A stretch of 64,000 bases of DNA from NCBI GenBank assembly GCA_947568835.1, contig OX387606.1:5704001-5768000 (forward strand), written 5' to 3'. The translations under genes were made by a program, and so were the position numbers. The notes beneath the pieces are model-generated. The model saw nothing but the letters and a program-made list of their open reading frames with translations. It ran no database searches and was not told where the DNA came from. The stretch's first letter is position 1. Each line of letters starts with the position of its first letter. Below, piece by piece: positions 32,801 through 63,037 of the stretch. This DNA comes from Protonemura montana (taxonomy: Eukaryota > Arthropoda > Insecta > Plecoptera > Nemouridae).

Positions 32801-35782
32801 CGTCTAGCGCAACAAAGAAATCTTTGCTGCTCAAATTGTTTCTGATGCTTTTGAACAAATGTGGCACGTCGTAAAGAGCATATATTTTACGACCATTTGG
32901 GTGTTTGAAAAATTGTTCGCCAAGCTCCAGATTCAACTTCTTCATTAGAGATTGGTTGTTCGGCCCCTGGTCACATGTGCAAGCACGAACGACCGCACCC
33001 GCTTCAAATAGGGCCGTGATATTTTGTTTCACTAATTTCAACATATCATCCCCAGACACATTTGTGCCAGCCACAGAAAATGCCAAGGGCATCTTGTAAC
33101 TAAGATTAAGGCCACGAATCATAAATACAAGAATATATGATCCAGAGGTCGCCTTCCTACCTAATTCACCCAAATCTTCGAAACCTTCAATCAAGTCCTA
33201 TCGAGGGGAATATTGCAGATCTCTCTTAATCGACATTTCGTCGAAAACAAGAACGCACTCGCGCTAACAGGGGACATTTGGGCCATCTTTTCGCGCAGCT
33301 TTGACATCAGCGATGCGCATAGACCTGGCTGCAAGTCCAACTCACTGAGCCATCTCTCAATTGTAGACTTGCCCGGCAGATTGAAATCAAACCTCTCCCT
33401 TAAATCTGAATACAAGCCAGGGCTCTTGTAATGCATGGCCAGTGCGAGCTGTTTTTCAGCAGAAGTCCATTTCTGCGTTTTCTTATGCAGCAATTGCATT
33501 TTGAAAAACGTGTGCACGTCAGGAGGCAAAAACGAAGCGGAAGCTAATGCTGCATCCTCTCTTGACAAATCAAGAATCATTGAATGTTTATTCTTCCAAT
33601 ATACCGCCTGGCTTTTGCTACGCTTTACCGCTAATTTAGCGGCTCCCAAATTCTTCATCAGCTTACGCTTTCGAGGTGTAACTGGTGATTTAATATGGTT
33701 CCAATAAAAAAATCTTATCATCTTAACAAATCGCATATTCAGTTAACAAAATGCATCAAATGTTGGGAATAAGATTGACTCCACAAATAATTAAATATAT
33801 CTGTTTTATGAACAGGAGTACGTTTTGACGCATTGTGAGTAAAGGTCGCTTTTACCGAAACCACTCTCAGCTAGTATTTGAAAACGCAGGTAAAACGGGG
33901 CCTAATATTTCGCTAGCCTGCTAAGCAAAAAGATTACACATGTTTGTGATTCTGAGTTTCTAAAAATAGTAAACCTTTCGAGCCCACCAGATGTACCTGG
34001 CTCGACCCAAAGAATTTATTTCTTAGTTAGCCTCAGGCACGTCGATAAAGTAGTCAAAAAGTTACTAGCAATCACCGTTTGGCGCTACCGTCGAATACTA
34101 CGCCCTAGCGTCATACCAGAACACTAGCATCAATCGGTCAGAAACTCGCCCTATCCTTATACAGCTCTACCCTACCGTATTATTTTCTCTAAGGTGGTAC
34201 TGTCACCCCTGGAGCGCGCTCTAGGCAGGTTCGTGTTGGTGTCGGGCCGATGTGGGACGTGCACTGGAATGTATACTTTGGTCCGGCGGAGCCCATGACG
34301 ACAGGAAATGACATTTGTTGAAAGGTTGAATAGATGTTGGTTGGGTTAGCATTTGACCGAGTGTACCATATATCTCATTCCCAACCCCTCACGTTGCAGT
34401 AGCATATAAAATAAATTAGGTCTTACGAGTACCCATGTTCTTTGGTGTGATCGTTCTCACCATGTCTGGAGCCCATCGAGCGCAGACGGATGAAAAATGT
34501 GTCCGGCCGTCCCTCGAACTCCTCACGCGTCAGCACCTCCTTGACGACGGGAAAAGTCGAGGCGACCACAACCTGCTCCCCGCCAAGCTTTAACCCCAGA
34601 AGCGGCGTTGCGAAGTCTTTGGCCAGCTGAGTTAGCGCCAGATGCTGAGCGCCGAGTTTGCGCGACAGATTCCTCAGAAGGCGCACATGTCCCACCAAAG
34701 GCGTCCATCGGGGACCTAGGGGCAAGTATAAGGTGAGAGGCGAAACAGACAGGAAATTATAGGTGGTTGACATGTCATGCAATTTTCTGCAGATATATGA
34801 TATTAGATTTTCCTTTTAGTAACATGAAAGAAACAGCTTCTAGTACCCCTCAACCATTCAAAAAAAGTTCCATTGAGCCTCGGTCTGCTTGTATCTATGG
34901 TGCACTGCTAAGATAGCGCAAGCTTGATGTTTTCATGAGCTCCCAAACATGAAAAATTCATGTGCGATCATCATTACTCTCTCTTTGGTGCGCCCTCTCT
35001 TGAGCTCTCTTGGTTCCCAGTGGTCAGCGAACTATTTTTGTTCAGATAAGGACACCGTTTCTAATCCAATTCAGTGAATGTCTCCCTGCCTCATGCCTAC
35101 TAATTTGCTGCCAAAGTGTAGATGTACGCTAAGCAGATTTCTGAATTTGGCCTCAAATTATTATTATTTTAGAGCAGCTGTCAGACGCTTGTTTTACTGT
35201 TGTGCAGCATCAATAACACAACTTTTTACATGTTTATGGTGTATTTTAGACAAAGATTAGAACCAAAATGTTTTTCACAAAACGGTGGATCTCAAAAATT
35301 AGGGAAAAGTGCGCCAATTGAGTGCCACTTTTCTAGAGAATTTAACTTAATCGACCTCAAAGACGATTTCTGCCCGAGTCATGGGACCAAAAGATCATGC
35401 AATCAAAGATCCCAAAACATCGCTACGCTCATTTTACAACGAAACTCAAATTGCGATTGCGACGCTCTAGTGGGATTAGATTCTAGAAACCTAGCAAGGG
35501 AAAGATTTCCCTTCATCAATCCTCCACCATACAGGAAAATCGTTCGAAACATAGAATAAACATTGTTTCTGCGCAATACACACACGTTTGCTTAAAGTAA
35601 TAGGAAAATGCCCATATGTATTGGTACAAATTATCCACAGTTCCCAAAATGTTGCCCCTGAGGCACCACAACCCACTAGTTTGACACTAACCTGGCGGAA
35701 ATTTGTGCGGTCTGGCAGCTTTCTTGAGCGCGAAGACCAGCGCTACCATCGAGGCCAGCAGCAGCAAGATCGTGGTCAACAT
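26864..35782 (-). CDS. Cytochrome P450, CYP2 clan (P450-2), complete, 498 aa
   Basis: Nine exons on the minus strand (5' to 3' on that strand): 35782-35692, 34715-34461, 31002-30758, 28823-28662, 28409-28298, 28208-28028, 27630-27513, 27285-27144 and 27054-26864 (TGA). They total 1497 nt without stop or frameshift, and every junction has GT/AG and matching phase. Motifs: membrane anchor (LTTILLLLASMVALVFAL), PPGP, WREQR in helix C, AGSQTTSN in helix I, EVQR (ExxR), FRPERF and haem Cys in RRRCLG. The usual Phe at the start of the haem loop is Leu (PLGLGRRRCLG, codon TTA at 27154-27152); the sister copy P450-3 keeps TTT. Intron 2 is lengthened by a P-like transposon (31,318-34,192), so the gene spans 8.9 kb. 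It should be an ER monooxygenase, substrate unknown. The Leu change may lower activity. Confidence 0.92.
29592..29700 (+). repeat. Dispersed repeat fragment (copy A), intron of P450-2
   Basis: Shares blocks with 37112-37260 on the opposite strand (TTTGCCACGATC and CGAACCCCGTTGCCCG). The similarity is also visible in one translated frame (RxQLExxxxNPVARxxVxR). It is probably a fragment of an interspersed element; the family is unknown. Confidence 0.5.
31318..34192 (-). mobile_element. P-element-type DNA transposon (degenerate), about 2.9 kb
   Basis: The ends form inverted repeats: CTTAGAGAAAATAATACGG plus TAGGGTAGAGC at the left (from 31318), and the reverse complement at the right (about 34160-34192), with a 1-nt indel. 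The element is flanked by GGTGGTAC on both sides (31310-31317 and 34193-34200), an 8-bp target duplication as expected for the P superfamily. It encodes a broken P/THAP9-like transposase on the minus strand. It sits in intron 2 of P450-2. The same intron in the sister gene P450-3 lacks it and is only about 0.44 kb long, so insertion followed the duplication, or the element was lost from the other copy. Confidence 0.85.
32187..33736 (-). pseudogene. P-element-type transposase, inactivated
   Basis: Three adjoining minus-strand reading frames, 33736-33191, 33194-32790 and 32786-32187, match successive parts of P-element/THAP9-like transposases: a leucine-rich or coiled N-terminal part with a helix-turn-helix-like stretch, the RNase H-like core with the GTP-binding insertion (CDQGPNNQ; YALYDVPHLFKSIRNNL), and the C-terminal region (LNQDPIECLFSMIRARGGFD) ending at a natural stop. 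The first and second frames are offset by a frameshift near 33,192. The second and third share a frame but are divided by an in-frame TAG at 32790-32792. A THAP zinc-finger domain, usual at the N terminus, was not recognised upstream. The enzyme would cut and paste DNA in the nucleus; this copy should be dead. Confidence 0.82.
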
Positions 35783-36926
35783 CGCAGAGTGATGTCCGTG
35801 AGACACTGCGCCGTTCATCCTACCAGAGGCGGCACAATGTGCTAACCCTGGATTTCCCAACCTTTTTTTGCTCCATTCCTTCTTTTTTCAATGTTTGGAT
35901 TAAAATTCCCCCTACCTAGAATAGTTTCGCTCAAGAGGTAAATTCGAAACAATGCAATTTGAGTTGCTATGAGTGATGTAAGCTGGTTTGCTTGATGCAA
36001 GCTGATTTCAGTGTTTACTGCGCCAGGAAAAAAGCCCAACGCTAAGGTAAAAAAAAAAAAAAATTTTGTTATGTCCACGATAAATCTGCACAACCCATCC
36101 ATAGACTTAAGTGTGCTCACGACGAACAGTTTTGAGCTTGCGTTAATATTATCTTTAGTAAGCGAGAATGTTTTGAAACTTTTATACCGAAATACCGCGT
36201 CAATTTTTGATTGAAGACAGAATCAGGAGTGTGAAATTGTTTACTCTTGTTTACCCATTGTTACATTTGTTGACACCCCTTGCGGGTCAAAATTCGTCAC
36301 CCGGATTCCCTCTTAAATTATTCCTGATTTTTCCTGATTTTTTTTAAGGTTTGCACCCCTACCACGGTGGGCTATTTGGAATTTGCGTGAACATAATATA
36401 TTTTTGGCCAACATAAAGAGTATACGCATTAAAACGGAAATAACTCCCTCAATTTTTATCTTGAACAAAACAGGGATGTGAATTATACTCTCATTCAAAG
36501 TATATATTCAATATTCAAATATAACATTACATCGTTGAGTGTGACTATTACACATTTGATGTGGGAATCCGATTGACGAATTTTTATCCGCGACGAGTGT
36601 CAACAGCGGTAGAACTTCAAGAAGTGTTGAATGCACATCCCTGTGGTTTTTTTTTACCTGCGGTTCTTGATTTTCTTCAGATGAGAGTGATCACCTCAGA
36701 TGAGTTGACCAATCCTAAGATATAGGTGAAGCATACTTTTGGCGTATGATTATTTAGGATAGCAATTTTTCCGCAAGAGAAAACGTCGAGGAGCCATGAT
36801 TAAATGTAAATATACTAATCGAAAAATATCGTCCATGTTTCTGATTCGGATTTCACGGCGGATGTAAGTAATGAAATGTTATTCTAATTCACCTTTCTGC
36901 AAATTCGTACAACATTGTCTCTCTCG

Positions 36927-44000: not shown

Positions 44001-44610
44001 TTATTTCCAAGCTTACCAATAAACTTCAGGTGAAACGTGTCCTTTTTCACTGTGCTTATTTCTGATGGATTGATTATTGGGGTTTAGCGGCACACTGTTG
44101 CTTATTTCTAAACAGTTCAGTCTTCTTTCGTAGCATAGCATTTTCACTTCTCCTACATATCTGTTAAAGCAACTATCGTTTTAAGCAACCGTGTCGGGGT
44201 GTTTTTTGGTCAGGCGCAGGCCCATGGTGACAGGAAATTAAACTAGTTGGAAGGATACCAATGGGTGCGCATTTAATTGGGTGCACTTCTATCCCATTCT
44301 CAACCACTCATGTTGCAGAACGAGTGCTCATGTTCTTTGGTGTGATCGTCCTCACCATGTCTGGAGCCCATCGAGCGCAGTCGGATGAAAAATGTGTCCG
44401 GCCGTCCCTCGAACTCCTCACGCGTCAGCACCTCCTTGACGACAGGAAAAGTCGAGGCGACCACAACCTGCTCCCCGCCGAGCTTTAACCCCAGCAGCGG
44501 CGTCGCGAAGTCTTTGGCCAGCTGAGTTAGCGCCAGATGCTGAGCGCCGAGTTTGCGCGACAGATTCCTCAGAAGACGCACATGTCCCACTAAAGGCGTC
44601 CATCGGGGAC
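41066..44610 (-). CDS. Cytochrome P450, CYP2 clan (P450-3), exon 1 missing
   Basis: Exons 2-9 on the minus strand (5' to 3' on that strand): 44610-44356, 43919-43675, 43311-43150, 42528-42417, 42326-42146, 41963-41846, 41499-41358 and 41262-41066 (TGA). Lengths and phases equal those of P450-2 exon by exon, except a last exon 6 nt longer. No stop or frameshift was found. It shows PRW after the missing PPG, WREQR, AGSQTTSN, EVQR, FRPERF and a normal haem loop PFGLGRRRCLG. Exon 1, coding for about 30 residues of membrane anchor, should lie about 1 kb upstream, but homology with P450-2 stops at about 44,945 and mtDNA begins at 45,121. The gene is therefore cut off by the junction rather than mutated. 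High similarity to P450-2, introns included, shows recent tandem duplication. Substrate unknown. Confidence 0.9.
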
Positions 44611-44945
44611 CTAGGGGCAAGGCTAAGGTGAGAGGCGAAACGGGCGGGAAAGTATAGGTGCATGGTATGCAAACGAATTTTCCTCAGGGATATGTTACTG
44701 AATTTTCATAAATATAAAAGAGACAGCTCCTCTCACCCCTCAACATTTCAAAAAAAGTTCCCTTAAGCGGTAAGCTTCAGTCTGCTTATTTCTGAGGTGC
44801 ACAGCTAATTATGTAAGATTTATCTCAACGCAAGCTTGATGTTGTCATGCGCACCCAAATATGAAAAAAAACATGTGCGATCATCAATACTCCCTCTTCG
44901 GTGCGGCCTCTCTTCAGCTCTCTTGGTTCCCAGTGGTCAGCGCAC

Positions 44946-45100
44946 TCATGGGCGTCCGCAGGATTTTGTCCAGGGGGGTGCAAATGCTTCCAAGGATATC
45001 GTCAAAAGGGCTTCAACTGGGGGGGCGGGGGGGGGGGGGGGGGAAGGGACGAAGGATCGCACGTTTTAAATATGTTGAATGAAAACTAGTCAACATACAC
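44946..45100. repeat. Unique or repeat-like segment with G-rich tract, abutting mtDNA
   Basis: Follows the end of homology to the P450-2 intron. It contains GCGTCCGCAGGATTTTGTCC and a G-rich run (45019-45043, interrupted by one C). It reads like an interspersed repeat but cannot be classified. Confidence 0.4.
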
Positions 45101-45121
45101 TCGCCTACCGAGTGTAGGCGA
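45101..45121. repeat. Short hairpin at the nuclear/mtDNA junction
   Basis: TCGCCTAC (45101-45108), a 5-nt spacer, then GTAGGCGA (45114-45121): a perfect 8-bp inverted repeat whose last base is the first base of the mtDNA match. Confidence 0.8.
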
Positions 45122-45680
45122 TATGTTAGGATTTTAAAATTAATATTAAATTTGTTAAGTGAAATTTTAAATTTAAATAATTTTATAAATAATGTAGAAG
45201 CTGAGAAATTTAAATTATAAACTAGGATTAGATACCCTATTATTTTAAACGTAAATTATGTAAACTTGAGTAGTAGTAGTTATGTTCTTGAAACTCAAAG
45301 AATTTGGCGGTGTTTTAGTCTGTTCAGAGGAACCTGTCCCGTAATCGATATTCCACGTTAAACCTTACTTATTTTTGTTATCAGCTTGTATACCGCCGTC
45401 GTCAGAATGTCCTAAGAAGGGTTTAATTTTCTTAAATTTTTATTAAAAATGATGTCAGGTCAAGGTGTAGCTTACGAATAAGTGGTGATGGGTTACAATA
45501 AATTTATTTATAACGGATAAAGTTTTGAAATAAACTTTTGAAGGTGGATTTGACGGTAATTAACTTAATTAAATTAATTTGATTTTAGCTCTAAAACATG
45601 CACACATCGCCCGTCGCTCTCGTTAATTAAGGCGAGATAAGTCGTAACATAGTAGGTGTACCGGAAGGTGCACCTGGAAA
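45121..45680 (+). rRNA. rrnS: 12S ribosomal RNA, 5'-truncated copy
   Basis: Holds the 3' two thirds: GGATTAGATACCCTATTAT near 45,220 and the 3'-terminal ACACATCGCCCGTCGCTC near 45,600, followed by tRNA-Val. The 530-loop region present in the second copy (GTGCCAGCCGCCGCGG, about 60,950) is cut off by the junction at 45121. Confidence 0.93.
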
Positions 45681-45682
45681 GT

Positions 45683-45752
45683 CAGAATAGAGCTTGATTA
45701 GTTAAGCATTTCATTTACACTGAAAATACACTGTGCAATTCAGTTTATTCTG
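45683..45752 (+). tRNA. trnV: tRNA-Val (UAC)
   Basis: Acceptor CAGAATA pairs with TATTCTG; anticodon loop TTTACAC. It lies between 12S and 16S as usual. Confidence 0.92.
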
Positions 45753-47083
45753 ATAAATTTTAACTTACTTTGTTTGTTAGTTGTTAAAGGTTTTTTTAAT
45801 TAAATTATTTTTAATCGGTTAAGTTTTTGTATAGAATATAGATAAAATTTTTTGAGTGGTAGGTTAATTGTATCGTGAGAGGTTGTTTGAAATAGTTTGA
45901 AAATATATTTTTATAAAAGTAGATTTTTGATCGTACCTTGTGTATCAGGGTTTATTAAAAAAATGGCAATTATTTGTTTTTTCCCGATTTGAAGAGAGCT
46001 AAATAAATGTGTTAGTTAATGTAGAATAATTATTAATAACATTTATTTAGTAATGAAACGTTATCCGTTCTTTAAGATATCTGGTTTTCCGAGAAATGAA
46101 TTTAATTCAGGCTTTAAAAAAGTGTAATTTAATTTATTAAATAAAATCATTTTTTTAAGCTAATACCTTGGGGGATAAGCTTTAGGGTAGGTTTTATAAT
46201 TAATAAAGCTTTAAAAGATTTCGTAGGCTTAGAATTAGCCACCTATTAAAGGATGTTATAATTTAATTTTTTGTGAGTTTAATTTTCTTAAAATTTAAGT
46301 TTTATATCGGAACAATGTAATAAATTTTTAGTTACTTGAGATAATGATAAAATTAGTATAAAAATTGTTTGATTTATTAAAAAAATGTGAGGTTACATTA
46401 AGGAATTAGGCAAATTAGTACTCGCCTGTTTAACAAAAACATGTCTTCTTGATTATAATTTGAAGTCTGACCTGCCCACTGAATTTTATATTTGAAGGGC
46501 CGCGGTATTTTGACCGTGCAAAGGTAGCATAATCATTAGTCTTTTAATTGAAGGCTAGAATGAATGGTTGGACGAGGTACTGACTGTCTCGGTGTGATTG
46601 ATATTAGAATTTAACTTTTAAGTTAAAAGGCTTAAATGTATTTAAAGGACGAGAAGACCCTATAGAGCTTTATATTTTTATATTATTGTTTGTTTAGGGA
46701 AATTATTACAATATTAAAAGAAATATTTTGTTGGGGTGACAAGAAGATAAGAAAAACTCTTTTTAGTTTAAAAACATTGATGTATGAATTGTTGATCCAT
46801 TATTATTGATTATAAGACTAAGTTACCTTAGGGATAACAGCGTAATCTTTTTCGAGAGTTCTTATCGACAAAAAGGGTTGCGACCTCGATGTTGGATTAA
46901 GGGTAATTTTGGGTGTAGATGTTCAAAGTTTAGGTCTGTTCGACCTTTAAATCCTTACATGATCTGAGTTCAGACCGGTGTAAGCCAGGTCGGTTTCTAT
47001 CCTTAAATTGATAATGATACTTTAGTACGAAAGGACCAAGTATTGGGAAAATTTTTTTCTAATTTGTTGATTAATATTAACTT
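45753..47083 (+). rRNA. rrnL: 16S ribosomal RNA
   Basis: Fills the interval between tRNA-Val and tRNA-Leu(UAG). Conserved blocks include GACGAGAAGACCCTATAGAG (about 46,650), TTACCTTAGGGATAACAGCG (about 46,825) and the sarcin-loop region TAGTACGAAAGGACC (about 47,025). Ends are set by the flanking tRNAs and are approximate. The length of about 1.33 kb is normal for crustacean or hexapod mtDNA. Confidence 0.93.
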
Positions 47084-47150
47084 TTCTATTTTGGCAGATA
47101 AGTGTAATGAATTTAGAATTCATTTATGTAAATAAATTTTACAGATAGAA
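47084..47150 (+). tRNA. trnL1: tRNA-Leu (UAG)
   Basis: Acceptor TTCTATT pairs with GATAGAA; anticodon stem ATGAA/TTCAT around TTTAGAA. Confidence 0.92.
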
Positions 47151-47151
47151 C

Positions 47152-48102
47152 TTGTTTATATATGATTCTTTACTTCCGTTAGTAAGTAGATTAATTTTGG
47201 TTATTTGTGTCTTGGTGGGAGTGGCTTTTTTGACTCTTTTAGAGCGTAAAGTTTTAGGGTATATCCAAATTCGTAAGGGTCCCAATAAGGTTGGGTTTGC
47301 TGGGATTCCTCAGCCTTTTTGTGATGCGATTAAGTTGTTTACAAAGGAGCAAACTTATCCTGTTTTATCTAATTATTTGCCTTATTATTTTTCTCCTGTG
47401 TTTAGTTTATTTTTATCTTTATTAGTGTGGATAATTATGCCATATAGAACGGGTTTATACACATTTAATTTAGGTTTAATTTTTTTTTTAGCTTGTACGA
47501 GACTGGGGGTTTATACTGTTATAATTGCTGGTTGATCTTCAAATTCAAATTACGCTTTATTGGGGGGATTACGTGCTGTGGCACAAACTATTTCTTATGA
47601 AGTAAGTTTAGCGTTGATTTTATTATCTTTTGTGTTTTTAATTGGTGGGTATTCTCTAAATATGTTTAGATGTTACCAAGAAATAGTTTGATTTGTGTTT
47701 TTGACTTTTCCCCTAGCATTGAGCTGGTTTGCCTCATGTTTGGCTGAAACGAATCGTACTCCTTTTGATTTTGCGGAAGGGGAATCTGAGCTAGTTTCCG
47801 GGTTTAACGTTGAATACAGAAGAGGTGGTTTTGCTTTAATTTTTTTAGCAGAATATGCTAGTATTTTATTTATAAGTATATTATTTTGTGTAATTTTTTT
47901 GGGCTGTGATGTGTATAGTCTGTTTTTTTATTTTAAGTTGAGATTTGTGGCTTTTATATTTATTTGAGCCCGAGGGACATTGCCTCGTTTTCGGTATGAT
48001 AAGTTAATGTATCTGGCGTGAAAAAGTTTTCTTCCCTTGTCTCTAAATTATTTGTTTTTATTTGGGGGTTTAAATTTATTTTTTGCGTCAATTTTAATTT
48101 AG
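47152..48102 (+). CDS. ND1: NADH dehydrogenase subunit 1, 316 aa
   Basis: Membrane-arm subunit of respiratory complex I, next to the quinone site. The frame opens with TTG, an accepted invertebrate mitochondrial start, one base after tRNA-Leu, and ends at TAG (48100-48102), 317 codons. In-frame TGA codons read as Trp. Conserved stretches include [18 protein letters not shown] and the loop [20 protein letters not shown], plus several hydrophobic helices. The strong T and G bias fits the minority-strand genes. An identical copy lies at 63038-63988. Confidence 0.97.
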
Positions 48103-48126
48103 TGCATAGTTTTAAGTACTATTACA

Positions 48127-48195
48127 AGTTAATAGAAGAATCAAACTTCTGTCTTATGTTTTCAAAACATATGCTTAACTTTAAGCTTTTTAACT
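48127..48195 (-). tRNA. trnS2: tRNA-Ser (UGA)
   Basis: Anticodon loop TTTGAAA with anticodon TGA; stem ATGTT/AACAT. It lies between ND1 and CYTB and overlaps the CYTB stop by 2 nt. Confidence 0.88.
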
Positions 48196-49330
48196 AATTA
48201 AGAAGTTTATCTCAAATCTTAAACATTAGTGGATTTAAAATATAGTATAAAAAGTATAAAACAGTTAGAACTTGGCCCACTAAGACATAAGGATCTTCTA
48301 CAGGTCGTGCTCCAATTCATGTTAAAAGAATTACAATTACTAAAAGGGATCAAAATATGATTTGATTGATTGGGTAGAATTGCGTTCCTCGGAAATTTCT
48401 CTTATTTGTGAAGGGTAAAATTATTAGGATCGCGATGGATAAAACAAGAGCAATAACTCCTCCTAATTTATTTGGAATTGATCGTAGGATGGCGTAGGCG
48501 AATAAAAAGTATCATTCTGGCTGAATATGTACAGGGGTGACTAGAGGGTTTGCTGGAGTGAAATTATCTGGATCTCCCAATAAATAAGGGTCTAGTAGGG
48601 TCAGTACAGTTAAAATTATTACTAAGACTAGGAAACCTACAATATCCTTAAAAGTAAAATAAGGGTGAAAAGGGATCTTATCTGTGTCACTATTAACACC
48701 TAACGGGTTATTAGAGCCTGTTTGATGTAAGAATAATAAGTGAATTATCGTTGCTGCAGCTACTATAAAAGGTAAAAGAAAATGAAATGTGAAAAAACGC
48801 GTGAGAGTTGCATTATCAACTGCAAATCCCCCTCAGACTCACTGTACAAGGTCTACCCCCAGGTAAGGGACGGCAGAAAGTAAATTGGTAATTACTGTTG
48901 CTCCTCAAAAAGATATTTGTCCTCAAGGTAGAACGTATCCTATAAAAGCAGTTCCTATGACTAAAAATAAAATAATGACTCCCACCATTCACGTATGTAA
49001 ATATATGTAAGAGCCATAGTATATGCCTCGTCCGATATGTAGATAAATGCAAATGAAGAAAAATGAAGCCCCGTTTGCGTGGAGAGTTCGTAAAAATCAT
49101 CCGTAATTTACATCTCGGCAAATGTGGGCTACTCTATTAAAGGCTAGGTCAATGTGGGCTGTGTAATGTATAGCTAAAAATAGACCGGTAGCAATTTGGA
49201 GCACTAAACATAATCCTAGTAGGGATCCGAAATTTCATCAAGTTGAAATATTTGATGGTGTGGGTAAATCTACCACGGCTCTATTGGCAATTTTAAATAA
49301 TGGGTGTCTTGTTCGTAATGGTTTATTCAT
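48194..49330 (-). CDS. CYTB: Cytochrome b, 378 aa
   Basis: Haem-b subunit of complex III in the inner membrane. It starts with ATG (49330-49328; [20 protein letters not shown]) and ends with TAG (48196-48194) after PLMFKIWDKLLN. Its 379 codons are the usual length. The ATG overlaps the ND6 stop by one base (TAATG). TGA codes for Trp throughout (for example NFGSLLG preceded by a TGA-coded Trp). No frameshift was noticed. Confidence 0.96.
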
Positions 49331-49836
49331 TAGTTTCTTTGACGTAGGGGTCCTTGATTAATTTTAGTGATTTTAACAACTGCAATTAATGTTAAAAATA
49401 AATAGAGTACAAGAGTCAAGGTAATTAATCTAGTAGGTCCATTGTAAAGTTTTCTAAGTGAGGCTGTAGCTTCCTCTTGGTATAAAGAAGTGTTTATGAT
49501 TGATAGACCTTCACAGTTTATAGTTCTTGATGTTAAGAAAGAAGAGTCTAAAATTAGGAGGCCGCAGAATAAAATAGAAGAGCCGATTATAAAGGGGATT
49601 AATGTTTTTATAGATATAGAAAATATCTCATTTGAAGCTAATCTTGTAACATAGATAAATAAGACTAGCAATCCTCCTAAAAATACTAGAAATAACACAT
49701 ATGAGAATCAAAATCTTTGGGCTATAAGACCAGTTAGAATACTAATTAAAACAGTTTGGACTAAGAGTATCAGGCCTATGGCCAAGGGGTGTGTTATTTG
49801 CGTAAATACGATTATGGTGGAAATGCTGTAGAACAT
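49330..49836 (-). CDS. ND6: NADH dehydrogenase subunit 6, 168 aa
   Basis: Hydrophobic membrane subunit of complex I. ATG at 49836-49834 (MFYSISTMIVFTQMTHPLAM), stop TAA at 49332-49330 overlapping the CYTB start by 1 nt. The stretch [20 protein letters not shown] is the conserved ND6 core helix. A TGA-coded Trp interrupts the standard-code frame early, so only the later part shows as open under the nuclear code. The start is chosen by length and because it is the only ATG near tRNA-Pro. Confidence 0.93.
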
Positions 49837-49855
49837 AAAAATTAATTGATAAATA

Positions 49856-49919
49856 CAGAGAATAGTTTAATTAAAATATTAGTTTTGGGGATTAATGATA
49901 GGGGTATTCCTTTTCTCTG
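49856..49919 (+). tRNA. trnP: tRNA-Pro (UGG)
   Basis: Acceptor CAGAGAA pairs perfectly with TTCTCTG; anticodon loop TTTGGGG. Confidence 0.92.
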
Positions 49920-49986
49920 AGTTTTAAAAGGTTAAACCTTAATTTTGATTTACAAGACCAATGTTTTATTTTAAACTATTAAAACT
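49920..49986 (-). tRNA. trnT: tRNA-Thr (UGU)
   Basis: Minus strand; acceptor AGTTTTA with TAAAACT; anticodon loop CTTGTAA. It abuts tRNA-Pro without a gap. Confidence 0.91.
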
Positions 49987-49987
49987 A

Positions 49988-50284
49988 ATGTTAACATCTT
50001 TATATTGGGGATTACCTATTTTGATATTTATGTGCGGGGCTTGGGTATTTGTTTCTAAGCGGAAGCATTTATTGTTGACTTTGTTGAGTTTGGAGTTTAT
50101 AGTGTTGAGTTTGTTTTTAATGTTGTTTATTTATTTGAACTTGATTAATTACGAATTATTTTTTGCTATGGTTTTTCTTACATTTTCAGTTTGTGAGGGG
50201 GCTTTAGGGTTGTCAATTTTAGTATCTATAATTCGAACACATGGAAATGATTATTTTCAATCTTTTGGGGTTTTACAATGTTAA
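49988..50284 (+). CDS. ND4L: NADH dehydrogenase subunit 4L, 98 aa
   Basis: Small membrane subunit of complex I with three hydrophobic segments. ATG at 49988, TAA at 50282-50284, 99 codons. The last 7 nt (ATGTTAA) overlap the start of ND4, the arrangement seen across arthropods, so both are probably translated from one bicistronic mRNA. An upstream in-frame ATG at 49961 lies within tRNA-Thr and is not used. Confidence 0.95.
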
Positions 50285-51618
50285 AATTATTGATTTCTTT
50301 GATTTTTGTGATACCCCTGTGTTTTATACAAAATACTTGATGAATGGTTCAAAGTATTTTATTTTTGTTAACTCTCTTGTTTATAGGATCTGCGGCTTTT
50401 AGAAGTTTTTTTGGAAGAATGTCATATTTTATAGGGTGTGATGTCATTTCATTTGGCTTGATTTTGTTGAGTTTTTGGATTTGTGTCTTGATAATTACAG
50501 CTAGAGAATCTGTTCTTCGAGTAAATAATTATTCAGGGTTTTTTTTACTGATAGTTTTATCTTTATTAATTCTTTTATATTGCACATTTAGAACAACTAA
50601 TTTATTTATATTTTATTTATTTTTTGAAAGAAGTCTAATCCCTACTTTATTTTTAATTTTAGGCTGGGGATACCAGCCCGAGCGTTTACAGGCGGGGGTT
50701 TATTTATTATTTTATACTCTTTTAGCTTCTTTACCGTTGTTAGTGGGTATTTTTTATATTTACAAATTTAATGATTCCTTATATATTCCTTTGCTTTATT
50801 CTTTGAATATTTCTTATTTTTGGTTTTATTTATGTTTAATTTTTGCTTTTTTAGTAAAAATGCCTATATTTTTAGTTCACCTATGGCTTCCTAAGGCTCA
50901 TGTGGAAGCTCCCGTTTCTGGTTCTATAATTTTGGCTGGGGTTTTATTAAAGCTAGGGGGGTACGGACTATTGCGTGTTTTTAAAATTTTATCTTTATCT
51001 GGTTTAACTTTTAATTTTATTTGAATCGGTATTAGTTTAGTCGGGGGCGTTTTAGTAAGTTTGATATGTTTACGACAGACAGATTTGAAGGCTTTGATTG
51101 CTTATTCTTCAGTTGCTCATATGGGAATCGTTTTAGGGGGTCTTATAACAATGACTTATTGAGGATTTTGTGGTTCTTTTACTTTAATAATTGCTCATGG
51201 TCTTTGTTCCTCTGGTTTATTTTGTTTAGCAAATATTTCTTATGAACGTTTGGGAAGACGAAGCTTATTAATTAATAAGGGTTTAATGAATTTTATGCCA
51301 AGCATAACATTGTGGTGATTTTTACTTAGATCTTGTAATATGGCTGCACCTCCTTCTTTAAATCTATTAAGTGAGATTAGATTATTAAATAGTATAGTGG
51401 CCTGATCTTGGGTAACTATAGTGATGTTGAGTTTTCTCTCTTTCTTTAGCGCGGCCTATACCTTGTATATCTATTCTTATAGTCAACACGGTAAAATCTA
51501 TTCAGGTGTTTACTCTTGTTCAATGGGCTATTCTCGTGAGTATCTCCTTTTATTTTTACACTGATTTCCTTTGAATTTATTAATTTTAAAGAGTGAGCCT
51601 TGTATGTTATGACTTTAG
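50278..51618 (+). CDS. ND4: NADH dehydrogenase subunit 4, 446 aa
   Basis: Proton-pumping membrane subunit of complex I. ATG at 50278 within the ATGTTAA overlap, TAG at 51616-51618, 447 codons. Recognisable segments include [20 protein letters not shown] and [20 protein letters not shown], a highly conserved antiporter-like motif with key Lys and His residues. Internal TGA codons read as Trp. Confidence 0.96.
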
Positions 51619-51686
51619 GATTTAAGTAGTTTAATTAAAAATACTGATTTGTGGTGTCGGTGATACAAATTTATTTGTTTTAGATC
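51619..51686 (+). tRNA. trnH: tRNA-His (GUG)
   Basis: Acceptor GATTTAA with TTAGATC; anticodon loop TTGTGGT. It lies between ND4 and ND5. This is the ancestral position, unlike true crabs, where tRNA-His is moved. Confidence 0.9.
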
Positions 51687-53421
51687 ATGTTACAATCTTT
51701 GTCAATTTGTTTAATCAGATTTGTGGTTTTATTTATTCTAGCTCTTAGCTTGGTTGGGGTTGGATTTTATTTTTTAATATTTGATCAAGTTTATTTTATC
51801 GAGTGAGAAGTTCTGTCTTTGAATTCAGGCAATATTGTTATAACCTTTTTGTTTGATTGAATATCTTTAATTTTTATAGGATTTGTTTTATTTATTTCCT
51901 CTTTAGTAATTTTTTATAGTCAAGAGTATATGGCTGGGGATTTAAATTTAAACCGTTTTATTTTATTAGTTTTAATATTTGTCTTATCAATGATGTTTTT
52001 AATTATTAGCCCTAATTTAATTAGTATTTTGTTAGGCTGGGATGGGCTAGGACTTGTTTCTTACCTATTGGTGATTTATTATCAAAATGTGAAATCGTAT
52101 AATGCTGGTATACTGACGGCCTTGTCTAATCGGATTGGAGATGTAGCTTTATTGTTAGCAATTGCTTGAATATTGAATTTTGGTAGTTGAAATTATATTT
52201 TTTATTTAGATTGTAGTGCTTCTAGAATAGAGATGCAAATTATTGGTGCTTTGGTCCTTTTAGCTGCTATAACTAAGAGAGCTCAGATTCCTTTTTCTTC
52301 TTGACTTCCAGCAGCTATGGCCGCCCCAACTCCTGTGTCTGCTTTAGTTCATTCTTCAACCCTAGTAACCGCGGGTATTTATTTATTAATTCGGTTTAAT
52401 GTTTTGCTGGCAGGGTCGGGTCTGGGCACTTTTTTGTTATTATTTGCGGGGCTTACCATGTTTATAGCTGGCTTAGGGGCTAATTTTGAGTTTGATTTAA
52501 AAAAAATTATTGCTTTGTCGACTTTGAGACAGTTAGGGCTAATAATAAGAATTTTAGCAATAGGATTTCCTAAGTTAGCATTTTTTCATTTATTGACACA
52601 TGCGTTATTTAAGGCTTTATTGTTTATATGTGCTGGAGCCATTATTCATAATATAAAGGATAGCCAGGATATTCGTTTTATAGGGGGGTTAGTGATGCAC
52701 ATACCTTTAACGTCATCTTGTTTTAATTTATCAAATCTTGCTTTGTGTGGGACCCCCTTTTTGGCAGGATTTTATTCTAAGGATTTAATTTTGGAAATTG
52801 CTTCATTGAGTTATATAAATGCCTTTAGATTTATTTTATACTTTTTTTCTACTGGCCTAACAGTTTGCTATTCTTTACGTTTGGTTTATTATTCAATAAG
52901 TGGTGATTTTAATACTTTTAGTCTTCATCCTTTAAGAGATGAGGGGTGAGTGATATTACGTGGGATAATGACTTTGTCTTTTATAGCAGTATTGGGGGGT
53001 AGTTTATTAAGTTGGGCCTTATTTCCAACTCCTTCTATAATTTGCTTGCCTTTTGCTTTAAAGACTTTAGCTCTTAGCGTAAGAGTTTTAGGTGGATGAC
53101 TAGGGTATGAATTGGCTAAGTTTTCGTTAACATATAGATTACAAACCTTGCGTTGGCACTTTTTAACAAGCTTTGTTGGTTCCATGTGATTCTTGCCTTT
53201 TATTAGCACGTATGGTGTCAGAAAACAACCATTAGAATTAGGGGGTTTAGTTAGTAAATCTTTTGATTACGGTTGAAGAGAGTATTTTGGAGCACAAGGG
53301 ATTTACAGAACAATTACTAAGTGGGCTAAGTTTAATCAGGGTTGGCAGAATAACGATTTAAAAACTTATTTGGTGAGTTTTATTCTTTGAGTAGTGATTT
53401 TATTATTTTTGTTGAATTTGT
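51687..53421 (+). CDS. ND5: NADH dehydrogenase subunit 5, 578 aa, incomplete stop
   Basis: Largest proton-pumping membrane subunit of complex I. ATG at 51687 directly after tRNA-His. The frame stays open to 53420 and then has only T (or TA) before tRNA-Phe, so the stop is completed by polyadenylation. Conserved blocks: LLGWDGLGLVSYLLVIYYQN and AAMAAPTPVSALVHSSTLVT, with the conserved HALFKALLFICAG. TGA is Trp at many sites. The length is typical for pancrustaceans. Confidence 0.95.
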
Positions 53422-53486
53422 ACTTAAATAGCTTATATAGAGCGTGACACTGAAGATGTTAAAGAGACTATTATAGTCTTTAGGTA
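53421..53486 (+). tRNA. trnF: tRNA-Phe (GAA)
   Basis: Acceptor TACTTAA with TTAGGTA; anticodon stem TGACA/TGTTA around CTGAAGA. Confidence 0.91.
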
Positions 53487-53551
53487 TTTATAAAAAAATA
53501 AATTTTTATTTTTACAGTGAAAATGTAATGTTTTATTTAAACTATATAAAT
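53486..53551 (-). tRNA. trnE: tRNA-Glu (UUC)
   Basis: Minus strand; acceptor ATTTATA/TATAAAT; anticodon stem TTACA/TGTAA around TTTTCAC. Shares one base with tRNA-Phe. Confidence 0.91.
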
Positions 53552-53552
53552 A

Positions 53553-53618
53553 GAAATGTAAACGGAGTTTAACCGTTAAAGAAAGAAGTTAGCAGCTTCT
53601 TCTTGAACCACTCATTTC
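53553..53618 (-). tRNA. trnS1: tRNA-Ser (GCU)
   Basis: Minus strand; anticodon stem AGAAG/CTTCT around CTGCTAA. The D arm is reduced, as usual for this tRNA. Confidence 0.85.
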
Positions 53619-53619
53619 C

Positions 53620-53684
53620 TTAATTGGAAATAAAATTTCAATTATATCATTAACAGTGATACGCCTCTTTTTGGCTTCAATTAA
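53620..53684 (-). tRNA. trnN: tRNA-Asn (GUU)
   Basis: Minus strand; acceptor TTAATTG/CAATTAA; anticodon loop CTGTTAA within ATCA...TGAT. Confidence 0.91.
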
Positions 53685-53702
53685 CCTGTAAAGGTTAAAC
53701 TA

Positions 53703-53767
53703 AGAATAAGGGTAATTGGTACCTAAGGCCAGGTCGAAACTGACTGCGATATATCGCTTCTTATTCT
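53703..53767 (-). tRNA. trnR: tRNA-Arg (UCG)
   Basis: Minus strand; acceptor AGAATAA/TTATTCT; anticodon loop TTTCGAC. Confidence 0.9.
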
Positions 53768-53830
53768 AAGACAGATTGAACTTCAATACTTTTTGGATGC
53801 AAACCAAATGTTATACTTAACTACAGTCCT
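53768..53830 (-). tRNA. trnA: tRNA-Ala (UGC)
   Basis: Minus strand; anticodon stem TTTGG/CCAAA around TTTGCAT. Overlaps the ND3 stop by 2 nt. Confidence 0.9.
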
Positions 53831-54182
53831 AGTTGGCTCAATCTAAGGCCCCCTGATTTCACTCGTGATAGAGGCCGATAATTAAAATTATTAAAAAAAA
53901 GAATCTAACGGTTCTTCAAGTAGTTAGGTTAGAGACTGGTAAGATGATGATTATAGGCAATAAAAGAGCAATTTCGACATCGAAGATTAAAAAAATTACA
54001 GCAATTAGGAAAAATCGTAGGGAGAAGGGCAGTCGAGAAGAGCTTTTAGGATCAAACCCGCACTCAAAGGGAGAGCTTTTTTCTCGATCAATGATAGTTT
54101 TTTTTGATAGAATAGATGCTAAAATTATTACAATTACAACGATTGTAGCTAAAATTAAGGCAATGATTGAAATGATTATAAT
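53829..54182 (-). CDS. ND3: NADH dehydrogenase subunit 3, 117 aa
   Basis: Membrane subunit of complex I. The frame, 118 codons, starts with ATT (54182-54180), an allowed invertebrate mitochondrial start just after tRNA-Gly. It ends with TAG (53831-53829), after a C terminus reading GLYHEWNQGALDWAN with TGA as Trp. It holds the ECGF-type loop region (reverse complement around 54,045-54,065). Confidence 0.93.
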
Positions 54183-54183
54183 T

Positions 54184-54248
54184 ACTTATTCTAAACTAAG
54201 TTTAGTCCTTCTGATTGGAAGTCAAATATACTATTATACTAAATAAGT
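54184..54248 (-). tRNA. trnG: tRNA-Gly (UCC)
   Basis: Minus strand; acceptor ACTTATT/AATAAGT; anticodon loop CTTCCAA. Confidence 0.91.
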
Positions 54249-55036
54249 TAACTACCTCATCAATAAATTGAAATATATAAAAATAATCATACTACATCGA
54301 CAAAATGTCAGTATCATGCAGCAGCTTCAAATCCAAAGTGGTGTCCTACTGAAAAATGCGCTAATGCATGTCGGATTAAACAAACTAATAAAAAAGTTGT
54401 TCCGATAATTACATGTAATCCGTGGAATCCTGTGGCGACATAAAAAGTAGCCCCGTAAACAGCGTCTGAAATAGTGAATGGGGCCTCTACGTATTCGTAT
54501 GCTTGGAGAATTGAGAAATAAACCCCTAGGACTACTGTAAATAAAAGCCCTTGTAATGTTTGGGAGTGGTTGCCTTCCATCAATCCATGGTGGGCTCAAG
54601 TGACAGTTACCCCTGAGGCCAGTAGAATGGCTGTATTTAAAAGAGGAATTTGTAAGGGGTTAAAGGGGGTAATTCCTGCCGGGGGCCACATAGCTCCTAA
54701 TTCTGTTGTAGGCGATAGACTTCTGTGGAAAAAAGCTCAAAAAAAAGACAAGAAAAAGAAAATTTCTGAAACAATGAAAAGAATTATACCTCATCGTAAT
54801 CCTAGAGTTACAGGAAAAGTGTGTAGTCCTTGGAAAGTACCCTCTCGTGTAACGTCTCGTCATCATTGGAATATGGTAAGACTCGTGATTGTTAGTCCTA
54901 AGAATAGAAGGTTTGTTCTGTATTGGTGAAATCATCTTAATAAACCTGAAACGGTAACTAGGGCCCCAATGGCTCCGGTTAATGGTCATGGGCTTTGATC
55001 GACTAAATGATAGGGGTGATTAGCATGTGTTGACAT
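54248..55036 (-). CDS. COX3: Cytochrome c oxidase subunit III, 262 aa
   Basis: Core subunit of complex IV. ATG at 55036-55034 ([20 protein letters not shown]), TAA at 54250-54248, 263 codons. The C-terminal part contains [20 protein letters not shown] and ends YWHFVDVVW then YWWGS, all family hallmarks. TGA is Trp. The ATG overlaps the ATP6 stop (TAATG). Confidence 0.97.
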
Positions 55037-55713
55037 TAGTTTACTTCTCTAGAATAAAGAGTTCTTAAAACAGCGAACACATAAGATTGAATAATAGCTA
55101 CTGCTGATTCGAGAACTAATAAGGCAATTTGAGCTACAATTAATAAAGATAGGATAGAGTATGTTAGGGAAGGACCGGTATTTCCTAATAAAGTTAGTAA
55201 TAAATGGCCGGCAATTATATTAGCTGCTAATCGTACTGCTAAAGTTCCTGGGCGAATTACATTACTGATAGTTTCAATGCAGACTATAAAAGGTATTAGA
55301 ACAGCAGGTGTACCTTGGGGTACTAAGTGGGCAAATATGTGTTGGGTGTGATTGATTCACCCATAAATTATAAATCTTAATCAAAGAGGTAGAGCTAATG
55401 CTAGGGTTAAAGTTAAATGGCTTGAACTTGTAAAGACATATGGGAATAGGCCAAGAAAATTATTAAATAAAATTAATGAGAAGAGCGAAATAAATATAAA
55501 AGATCTTCCGGCGTGGCCTGTCGGTCCTAATAGTGTTTTGAATTCATTATGTAGGGTTAATAAAATTTTATTCCAAAGTAGTGTGTATCGAGATGGTATA
55601 AATCAAAATGCGGTGGGAATTAGTGTAAGTCCTAAGACCGTGCTAATTCAGTTAAGAGATAAATTTATTACACTAGTAGTGGGGTCGAAAACTGAGAATA
55701 GGTTAGTTATCAT
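55036..55713 (-). CDS. ATP6: ATP synthase F0 subunit a (ATP6), 225 aa
   Basis: Proton-channel subunit of ATP synthase. ATG at 55713-55711 ([13 protein letters not shown]), TAA at 55038-55036, 226 codons. It shares ATGATAA with the end of ATP8 (7-nt overlap) and one base with COX3, so ATP8-ATP6-COX3 form one transcript segment. The C terminus includes EIAVAMIQSYVF-like residues (IQSYVFAVL), typical of the family. Confidence 0.95.
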
Positions 55714-55865
55714 TTTCAATTCATTGAATTGCTAGAGATTGTTTTTTCGGAAATTTCGGGGGACTTAGGGAGAAAGGAATAATAATTTACAAAATTAAAA
55801 ATTAATAAAATTAAAGAAAAGGCAACAAATAAGGTTAATCATCTAATAGGGGCTATTTGAGGAAT
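55707..55865 (-). CDS. ATP8: ATP synthase F0 subunit 8, 52 aa
   Basis: Small stator-associated subunit of ATP synthase with a single N-terminal membrane helix. The start is ATT at 55865-55863 and the frame reads (M)PQMAPISWLTLFVAFS, the usual arthropod MPQM start. Stop TAA at 55709-55707 overlaps ATP6 by 7 nt. It is too short to appear as an ORF under the standard code because of a TGA-coded Trp. Confidence 0.93.
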
Positions 55866-55866
55866 C

Positions 55867-55933
55867 AAAGAATACTAGACTGATACTAGTAATTTTAGCA
55901 TGACATACTAAGGTTAAATTTAACTAATTCTTT
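55867..55933 (-). tRNA. trnD: tRNA-Asp (GUC)
   Basis: Minus strand; acceptor AAAGAAT/ATTCTTT; anticodon loop ATGTCAT. Confidence 0.91.
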
Positions 55934-56003
55934 CACCAGAAGTAAGTGCGATTTTACTATAAAATGGTTTAAGAGACCATTACTTGCTTTCAGTCATCTG
56001 ATG
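55934..56003 (-). tRNA. trnK: tRNA-Lys (CUU)
   Basis: Minus strand; acceptor CATCAGA/TCTGGTG; anticodon stem ATGGT/ACCAT around CTCTTAA. Abuts COX2. Confidence 0.91.
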
Positions 56004-56691
56004 ATGCGTCTCTTAGGGATGTAATTCAATTAATAAAAATGTTTGTAGGTACACTTTCAATTACGATAGGTATAAAACTATGATTAGCCCCACAAATTTC
56101 TGAACATTGTCCAAAAAATAATCCTGGTCGATTTATAAGGAAACTAGTTTGATTTAATCGGCCTGGGGTAGCATCAATTTTTACCCCAAGAGCTGGTACA
56201 GTTCAAGAATGTAAGACATCTGCGGCTGTCACTAATATCCGAATTTGAGTGTTTATGGGTAAAACAGCTCGATTATCTACATCTAATAATCGGAACCCGT
56301 CTGAGTTTATTTCGTTGTAAGGGATTATATATGAATCAAATTCTACTTGTGTAAAATCTGAGTATTCGTAACTTCAGTATCACTGGTGCCCAATAGTTTT
56401 TAAGGTAATAGCGGGACTACTTACTTCGTCTAATAGGTAAAGAAGTCGTAAAGAGGGGAGAGCAATGAAAATCAAAGTTACGGCGGGTAAAATTGTTCAA
56501 ATTACTTCAATAGTTTGGCCTTCTAAAAGGTACCGATTAATATTTAAATTAAAGAATAATGTAGCAAGTAGATAGCTTACTAAAGCTGTAATTATAATTA
56601 AAATTAATATTGCGTGATCATGGAAAAACGTTAATTGTTCTATAAGAGGAGATGCTCTATCTTGGAGTCTTAAATTTGCTCATGTTGCCAT
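56004..56691 (-). CDS. COX2: Cytochrome c oxidase subunit II, 229 aa, incomplete stop
   Basis: Complex IV subunit that takes electrons from cytochrome c through the binuclear CuA centre. ATG at 56691-56689 (MATWANLSLQDSASPLMEQL); 229 codons, then a single T before tRNA-Lys, completed by polyadenylation. The CuA ligand motif [15 protein letters not shown] (two Cys, His, Met) lies near 56,075-56,115. The length of 688 nt is standard. Confidence 0.96.
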
Positions 56692-56695
56692 TCTT

Positions 56696-56756
56696 TCTAA
56701 CAAAAGGAATAAACCTTTATATATGGAGCTTAAATCCATTGCACTTATCTGCCATA

Positions 56757-56761
<5 letters not shown>
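56696..56761 (-). tRNA. trnL2: tRNA-Leu (UAA)
   Basis: Minus strand; acceptor TCTAATA/TGTTAGA; anticodon loop ATTTAAG. Its place between COX1 and COX2 is the hallmark of Pancrustacea (other arthropods have it beside trnL1). Confidence 0.93.
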
Positions 56762-58292
<1,531 letters not shown>

Positions 58293-58293
58293 C

Positions 58294-58359
58294 GGTAGAA
58301 TGGCTGAGATATTAGGCAATAGATTGTAAATTTATTTAGGAGGGTAAGCCTCTTCTACC
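58294..58359 (+). tRNA. trnY: tRNA-Tyr (GUA)
   Basis: Acceptor GGTAGAA/TTCTACC; anticodon loop TTGTAAA. Confidence 0.92.
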
Positions 58360-58365
58360 AGTATA

Positions 58366-58429
58366 GGGCTTTATAGTCATTAATGATATTAGACTGCAAT
58401 TCTAAAGGAGTAGAATTCTACTAAGGCTT
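58366..58429 (+). tRNA. trnC: tRNA-Cys (GCA)
   Basis: Acceptor GGGCTTT/AAGGCTT with G-U pairs; anticodon stem TTAGA/TCTAA around CTGCAAT. Overlaps tRNA-Trp on the other strand by 7 nt. Confidence 0.88.
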
Positions 58430-58490
58430 AAAGAATTTTTACCTTTATTTACAGCTTTGAAGGCTATTAGTTTGATTAACTTAAAGCCTT
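58423..58490 (-). tRNA. trnW: tRNA-Trp (UCA)
   Basis: Minus strand; acceptor AAGGCTT/AAGCCTT; anticodon TCA in loop CTTCAAA, which reads both TGA and TGG as needed by the mitochondrial code. Confidence 0.9.
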
Positions 58491-58493
58491 TTT

Positions 58494-59528
58494 TTAAAAA
58501 ATACTGTGAATTAGAGAAATAATTAGAAGCCCCAATGTGGACAGAATTGATAAAAATAAGGATATGCTGTATAGATTGCTATTAGCAGGGATTGGTGAAT
58601 TTCAGAGATTTTCAGAGTAAGTCAGTATAAAGGCTCCGAAAGCGGTACGTAAATAATAAAACAAAGTCATAAGGGTAGTGATTACTATAAGAGTTACAGT
58701 GAAAAGATTACCCAGATTAACCATACTTTGGATGACAATTCATTTAGGCATAAATCCCAAGAAAGGTGGCAATCCCCCCAAAGATAGGAGTGTCACGAAA
58801 AAAGCAAATTTGTTAATTGGATTAATCGAATTTAGGGAGAAAATCTGGTTGACATGCATTAGTTGAAAGGTTCTTATTATGAAAATGATAGCAAAAGATA
58901 AAAAAGTGTAAACTAAAAAGTAAACACCCCACACGCTCTCTCCAGCTGCTATCGCGGCTAATAGCCAACCTAAGTGGTTAATAGATGAATAGGCTAAGAT
59001 TTTTCGCAGGGACGTTTGATTTAATCCTCCCAAAGATCCAATGACTACGGAAAGTACAATAATAATTGAAAAGAAAACATCTAACTGAAATGTGTAAGAA
59101 ATAAGTATAAGGGGGGCGATTTTTTGTCACGTTAATAGTATGAGTCTATTTATTCAGTTAAGGCCTTCTATAACTCCTGGGAATCAAAAATGAAAAGGAG
59201 CGGCTCCTATCTTTAATAAAAGGGAGCTTCTGATTAGTGTATTTATAATAGTTAAGTTCGGGGAATTAGGGACAGACGGGTTAAATAATAAAGATCCCAA
59301 AATTACTGAGAGTAATAAGGTGGCAGAAGCAAGAGCTTGCACTAAAAAGTACTTTAATGATGCTTCAGTTGAAAATAAATTTTTTGAATTAGTTATTAAA
59401 GGAATAAAAGAAAGTAAGTTAATTTCTAAGCCTATTCATGCGCCAAATCATGAGTTAGCAGAAGTAGAAATTAAAGTACCCCCTATTAATGTTAATAAAA
59501 ATAAAAATTTAGTGGGATTGTTAATCAT
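58494..59528 (-). CDS. ND2: NADH dehydrogenase subunit 2, 344 aa
   Basis: Antiporter-like membrane subunit of complex I. ATG at 59528-59526 (MINNPTKFLFLLTLMGGTLI), next to tRNA-Met; TAA at 58496-58494. The central segment GGLNQTSLRKILAYSSINHL and LSLGGLPPFLGFMPK are strongly conserved ND2 motifs. TGA is Trp. At 345 codons it is within the family range. Confidence 0.95.
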
Positions 59529-59530
59529 TA

Positions 59531-59596
59531 GAGAGAAGGGGGTTAAACCCCTATAAATGGGGTATGAACCCAGTAGCTTAATTAGCTTATCTTTCT
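59531..59596 (-). tRNA. trnM: tRNA-Met (CAU)
   Basis: Minus strand; anticodon stem TGGG/CCCA around TTCATAC. Acceptor ends are approximate by a base or two. Confidence 0.88.
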
Positions 59597-59606
59597 AGTG
59601 GAATTA

Positions 59607-59674
59607 TATAATTTAGTGTATGGAGCACAAAAGTTTTTGAAATTTTTAGAGATAGTTCAATTCTATTAATTATA
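59607..59674 (+). tRNA. trnQ: tRNA-Gln (UUG)
   Basis: Acceptor TATAATT/AATTATA; anticodon loop TTTTGAA. Confidence 0.91.
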
Positions 59675-59738
59675 ATGAAGGTAACCAAAGCTACTTGATT
59701 TACCCTATCAAGGTAATCCTTTAATCAGGCACTTCATT
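59674..59738 (-). tRNA. trnI: tRNA-Ile (GAU)
   Basis: Minus strand; acceptor AATGAAG/CTTCATT; anticodon loop TTGATAG. Borders the control region. Confidence 0.92.
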
Positions 59739-60087
59739 TTTCTTGCATTTAATATAATTCAAAATGGAAATGGGATGGAAAATGCTAAAAATGGTATAAA
59801 AGCTTTTTAATTAAAAATGTAGCAATTTTTTTTAACAAGTATCACTATTTCCTCCCAAAACCCCCAAAATTTTCAATTTTTTTGAAGAATTTAGAAATTG
59901 AAAATTTTTTTGAAATAATAATTAATGGAAAAAGGTCTTATTAAATTTTTCCCCTAAAAATATATGTCTGTATTATAAGTATTTAATTTAAATCTAGTAT
60001 ATCTATATAAATATTATGTTTATTTAAAGAAATAAGAAAAATATAAATTTATTAAAATTTAATTGGAAATTAATTAAATTACTTAAT

Positions 60088-61566: not shown

Positions 61567-61568
61567 GT

Positions 61569-63036: not shown

Positions 63037-63037
63037 C

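Follow-up and report, generated by a model that had tools for sequence, protein, structure and literature searches.

Homology between two P450 genes of Protonemura montana, P450-2 and P450-3, stops within intron 1 of the latter, and mitochondrial DNA (mtDNA) begins a short distance beyond, which raises the question of what placed it there and whether the gene survived. The first-pass annotation was confined to the window, which is the whole 64,000-nucleotide stretch of DNA that was analysed (C4:5,704,001-5,768,000; the genome has 34 contigs and 258,480,905 bases). It placed the end of homology at about 44,945 and the start of mtDNA at 45,121, considered exon 1 of P450-3 missing, and proposed either a nuclear/mitochondrial chimera or a very recent insertion that split the gene. 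We use extended coordinates that add 80 kb rightward on C4, a 25.9-Mb contig; base 1 is C4:5,704,001, and numbers above 64,000 lie beyond the window. The 144 kb examined contain zero N. The 15,885-bp mtDNA contig C34 is the reference for all comparisons with the array described below, and its positions carry the prefix mt.

A BLAST comparison of C34 with the extended sequence found mtDNA from exactly 45,121, as annotated, through 73,744. This 28,624-bp region represents 1.80 turns of C34, arranged head to tail on one strand, seamless, and 99.9% identical to C34. The window itself holds 18,880 bp at 99.9% identity, for which chance is no issue. The last base of the array is C4:5,777,744, and nuclear sequence resumes beyond it. 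The BLAST matches, together with one feature located by comparison with C34, are as follows.

45,121-64,000, plus strand: part of the array inside the window (mt 7585-15885, then mt 1 onward)
45,121-53,421, same strand as the next two: array segment mt 7585-15885
53,422-69,307: array segment mt 1-15885
69,308-73,744: array segment mt 1-4437
60,007-60,638, limits approximate: AT-rich stretch in the non-coding region of the mtDNA, including direct repeats, each about 200 bp

The twice-covered part amounts to 12,738 bp, over which the copies show no difference from each other; their period is 15,886, with a scar at no internal point. As far as the assembly goes, this array is a NUMT, derived from mtDNA, flanked by nuclear sequence within C4, and distinct from the resident mtDNA of C34. 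It is a concatemeric one, with more than one mitogenome present head to tail and in phase. Mega-NUMTs in the human sense have very many copies (tens to hundreds); because this array has only 1.80 turns, it is filed as a tandem NUMT instead. Under the invertebrate code, all twelve mitochondrial protein frames examined within the window (the full set but for ATP8) match their Pfam families, the ND6 frame with a score of 29.9 bits, slightly below the curated cut-off of 33.2. The array therefore contains COX1 and eleven other mitochondrial protein genes with open frames, but because these use the mitochondrial code, a mitochondrial role in the nucleus is improbable. In the non-coding region, a direct repeat of two units, each about 200 bp long, shows up as off-diagonal matches when C34 is compared with the array (window positions 60,240-60,627, mt 6821-7205).

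Past the array, homology to P450-2 resumes at 77,977-78,308 and again at 79,245-79,564, and the exon that had been thought missing, for which a search elsewhere in the assembly had been proposed, is found on C4 across the array. The two exons that border intron 1 are as follows.

44,356-44,610, minus strand: P450-3 exon 2, a homologue of exon 2 in P450-2, open between an AG acceptor and a GT donor; intron 1 has its acceptor side at 44,610
79,407-79,497 (C4:5,783,407-5,783,497), beyond the window: P450-3 exon 1, open, with a methionine at 79,497, a GT donor at 79,407, and an FPPG end as in P450-2

Exons 2-9, annotated as intact, are indeed present as open segments. Spliced to exon 1, they match Pfam model PF00067 with E = 4e-96 over model positions 1-460 of 462, so that P450-3 has the p450 domain over its complete length; its best solved relatives are CYP2D6 and CYP2R1. 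In P450-2, exon 1 starts 977 positions past exon 2, as the annotation had it, leaving an intron of 976 bp, whereas intron 1 of P450-3 spans 34,796 bp. The gene is split, then, only in the sense of a lengthened first intron: it is not truncated, and its exon 1 lies on the far side. The main effect of the array is a 34.8-kb first intron in a P450 gene that retains an open coding sequence. A search with the left flank for a second site that has this flank but no insert returned two candidates, which were this locus and P450-2. Twelve residues before the methionine given above, P450-2 has another methionine and P450-3 a leucine (LNGAVSHRQHSAM vs MNGAVSHGHHSAM; extended 79,407-79,540 vs window 35,692-35,815). 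Because of this leucine, the second methionine is the likely start, as judged from the two sequences.

The sequence between the end of P450-2 homology and the mtDNA belongs to a repeat element, which resumes after the array and a short filler.

44,939-44,946: 8-bp target-site duplication on the left side of the repeat element, AGCGCACT
44,947-45,091: left part of the repeat element, beginning CATGGGCGTCCG, matched in other copies
45,092-45,120: 29-bp left filler, between the element and the mtDNA start
73,763-77,885: right part of the repeat element
77,874-77,885: inverted terminal CGGACGCCCATG, the right end of the element
77,886-77,893: right 8-bp target-site duplication, AGCGTACT, which brackets the element
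35,026-35,033: corresponding site in P450-2, AGCGAACT, for comparison with the P450-3 duplication

The left and right duplications agree at 7 of 8 bases. Together with the 12-bp ends CATGGGCGTCCG and CGGACGCCCATG, this is the structure of a DNA transposon with terminal inverted repeats. Pfam searches with two of the 11 listed element reading frames of at least 70 amino acids gave no matches, to a transposase or otherwise. The two sides of the insertion site each have at least 40 matches in the genome, self included; these are lower bounds, from scoring 40 of 111 candidates for the left side (query 44,940-45,120) and 40 of 119 for the right. Among 28 non-self element loci (L040 being the same place as L037), 27 could be aligned across the site, and mtDNA is absent there from all 27. 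The common form of the element at the site is AACTAGTCTGGGCGAAACACTCGCCTACCGCCACTG, with TAGGCG instead of TGGGCG in three of the 27. The right half of the element is matched contiguously in other copies for only about 1.8 kb, where the fetched loci end. Homology to P450-2 stops at 44,946, by our measurement, because the repeat element starts there. The mtDNA is thereby ruled out as the cause of the break, and there are two different events: the break is the end of the element, and the mtDNA is a separate insertion within it.

The element to the left of the insert stops after AACTAGTC, and the joined flanks read AACTAGTC followed directly by TAGGCAAAACAC. On the best alignment this makes the element whole again without loss of a base; the joined flanks differ by one base from element copy L046 and by two from copies L025 and L041. 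Neither junction is a direct joint. In the 29-bp left filler, AACATA is the TATGTT of the mtDNA end in inverted form, a 14-bp stretch repeats the flank on the right, and further bases copy that flank in inverted orientation. All 29 bases are covered by 6-mers found, direct or inverted, within 60 bp of the four ends. Out of 2000 mononucleotide shuffles, none did as well for 6-mers, none for 7-mers, and nine for 8-mers. The right filler consists of 18 bp between the mtDNA end and the resumed element, before TAGGCAAAACACTCG. Tested as 20 bp, it has an 11-bp piece that repeats the adjacent mtDNA end, covering 11 of the 20 bases; shuffles equalled it in nine of 2000 cases for 8-mers, 64 for 7-mers, and 535 for 6-mers, and the signal is weak at the two shorter lengths. 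Insertions copied from nearby flanks, the hallmark of templated end joining, are thus evident on the left at all three word lengths, and on the right at 8-mers but not clearly at 6-mers or 7-mers. Both fillers look like products of templated end joining. The 14-bp repeat (ACACTCGCCTACCG, at 45,097-45,110 and 73,771-73,784) could instead be a target-site duplication of the insert. We rank that reading second: just before the left copy stands AACAT, which occurs there in none of the 27 element copies, while the right copy sits in normal element context.

The array differs from C34 by 13 substitutions, 11 of them transitions, and three indels (five bases). The seven substitutions in the twice-covered part, at mt 1508, 3150, 3351, 4104, 11665, 13275, and 15683, are all present in both copies, with none private to either. 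The once-covered 3,147 bp, which include non-coding sequence, have six substitutions and the three indels, and are denser in substitutions (6/3,147 vs 7/12,738, Fisher p = 0.029). The indels lie outside protein genes, in the AT-rich non-coding region. Ten substitutions fall in protein genes, where none creates a stop codon. Eight of these ten are synonymous, whereas random transitions would be synonymous in 38% of cases (p = 0.009, an approximate value, since the expectation considers transitions only and uses stop-to-stop frames). The substitution at mt 3351 was assigned to COX1, the COX2 frame at this point being upstream of the Pfam COX2 match, and the one at mt 4491 lies within a G run and is possibly a base-calling error. 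These sequence differences would seem to have arisen while array and C34 lineages were both working mtDNA. Twelve loci with older NUMTs served to polarise the substitutions, covering seven of the 13 positions and leaving six without an outgroup. The older NUMTs carry the array state at mt 3351, 4104, and 13275, and the C34 state at mt 4937 and 7128. They are mixed at mt 3150 (four loci with the C34 state, two of these being copies of one repeated NUMT, and one with the array state), and match neither at mt 4491. Because the polarised positions split between the two states, changes seem to have occurred in both lineages. Array and C34 share no exact stretch longer than 4,459 bp, so that an accurate longer read inside the array can be distinguished from C34 mtDNA.

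From these results, we conclude that the locus probably represents a recent patch of a chromosome break, made within the element in P450-3 intron 1 by a head-to-tail mtDNA concatemer of a sister haplotype. The assembly gives the basis for this directly in the extent and phase of the array, its nuclear flanks, the element and intron that bridge it, the fillers, and the identical copies. A double-strand break would have occurred in a repeat element already residing in the intron, and a linear head-to-tail concatemer, about 1.8 times the length of the mitochondrial genome and derived from a sister of the haplotype in C34, would have sealed it. The donor would already have been a concatemer, as a rolling-circle or recombination product, and would have entered as one molecule, with joining by a templated, polymerase-theta-like process. 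The excess density of differences in the once-covered part counts against a single source, and a mixture of sources is possible.

That same excess bears on the best artefact rival, in which a real but shorter NUMT, running once from mt 7585 through 4437 (12,738 bp), gained one extra turn when the assembler circled the mtDNA graph. The identity and perfect phase of the internal copies are likewise what an extra turn would give. However, the once-covered 3,147 bp, with six substitutions and three indels, would have to come from mtDNA other than C34, and this requires a second mtDNA haplotype in the sample, through pooled animals or heteroplasmy. The repeat to be bridged, moreover, is 12.7 kb, a length within reach of ordinary long reads. 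We regard the extra turn as unlikely. A nuclear/mitochondrial chimera, created by the assembler or by chimeric molecules, in an intron that actually lacks mtDNA, is the reading the first-pass annotation set beside a recent insertion, and of the two it is the insertion that the evidence supports. Identity of 99.9% to mtDNA is what a chimera would show, and an entire mitogenome in a little brown bat scaffold is a suspected artefact of this sort, as cited in PMC7699184. Here, however, the sequences on either side of the insert belong to a single repeat element and a single P450 intron, exon 1 is where it should be, and the two junctions are independent and carry filler, with zero N across 144 kb. 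With one element and one intron bridging the insert, and filler at both joints, a misjoin of unrelated contigs is hard to maintain. The inserted haplotype, moreover, is not that of C34: because the copies share all seven twice-covered substitutions, and the once-covered part differs as well, a chimeric misjoin is very improbable.

The insert might also have been enlarged later, in the nucleus, by unequal exchange, and tandem amplification after transfer is on record for the cat Numt, cited in PMC7897518 and PMC6563850. Against this, the turns meet in exact phase and are free of scars internally. A linear insert of less than one turn could not have supplied mt 4438-7584, and in-phase exchange would need an insert already longer than one turn. 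We give this reading almost no credence.

For the break patched by a concatemer, which remains our preferred explanation, the layering of the locus suggests an order of events: P450 duplication, then insertion of the element in P450-3 intron 1, then insertion of mtDNA in the element. Zero private differences in 2 x 12,738 bp place a 95% bound of about 1.2e-4 per site on divergence between the copies. With a mutation rate near 3e-9 per site per generation, the insertion would therefore be less than about 40,000 generations old, unless gene conversion between the copies erased differences.

Other NUMTs occur in this genome. Searches with C34 in two pieces, in which 38 of 208 and 40 of 55 candidates were scored, gave at least 40 and at least 41 matches. 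Leaving aside C34 and the array, the longest individual match among those listed, at C16:21,544,421-21,546,424, measures 2,004 bp with 93% identity, which makes the array an outlier among the NUMTs listed. The match at C16 falls in a composite NUMT (C16:21,543,748-21,550,769) whose pieces, 93-99% identical, add up to about 5 kb of mtDNA; roughly 2 kb interrupt them, and mt 6339-7120 is absent. One NUMT piece, mt 2903-3286, is present in five copies on C14 (at 244,175, 459,532, 2,343,962, 2,403,903, and 2,467,656), all on one strand with 82-83% identity, as if an old NUMT had spread along the contig. Three short NUMTs of 112-168 bp (C12:11,759,149-11,759,316, C15:2,520,410-2,520,562, and C13:3,423,932-3,424,043) are 100% identical to C34, which suggests that transfer of mtDNA continues in the lineage.

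Several described systems resemble this one in part. The Mega-NUMT of human chromosome 14q13, as described in PMC7897518, likewise has whole mitogenomes head to tail in the nucleus, with a haplotype unlike the resident mtDNA, and can mimic mtDNA mixtures. It is estimated at 45-56 copies and 700-900 kb with its sequence unresolved, while the array here has 1.8 turns in 28.6 kb, with both junctions and the gene context assembled. The nearest arthropod parallel among the literature compared is a recent, nearly whole-mtDNA NUMT in Drosophila, for which the authors could not exclude tandem copies (PMC9222939); that NUMT was inferred by genetics and PCR, whereas the assembly here contains over one turn and both ends. 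The 641-kb NUMT of Arabidopsis chromosome 2 is also a nuclear insertion larger than a whole mitochondrial genome, but involves plant mtDNA at a far larger scale (PMC9071559). In the primate NUMTs surveyed in PMC2567098, breaks were sealed with little or no chromosomal loss (54% of 90 cases without deletion), as here, where none is seen on the best alignment. The 152 primate fusion points comprise 53 with microhomology, 73 blunt, and 26 blunt with insertion, whereas both junctions here have 18-29 bp of filler. Mixed templated insertions like these are described for polymerase-theta end joining (PMC4912351), which at this locus is recognised by its sequence signature only. PMC6563850 also mentions mtDNA concatemers, presumed products of rolling-circle amplification.

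The process at work is a known one, and this locus is a large, clean example of it. A single locus displays the structure of the donor (an in-phase concatemer), the mechanism of joining (filler, with no loss), and layered timing (gene duplication, element, mtDNA). To our knowledge, animal NUMTs longer than one mitogenome have rarely been resolved with both junctions. On balance, we lean toward the view that templated end joining captured a single linear mtDNA concatemer here, in an animal germline and with both junctions resolved. The event would be so recent that neither copy has acquired differences of its own, and the insert may still be segregating. In that case the locus would be a direct fossil of a concatemeric donor molecule, and would serve as a natural marker that mimics heteroplasmy in the species. 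Because the array carries COX1 and eleven other open mitochondrial frames of a sister haplotype, it could be a source of contamination in barcoding, in heteroplasmy calls, and in mitogenome assembly for P. montana, and the 34.8-kb intron that it created may alter expression of the P450 gene.
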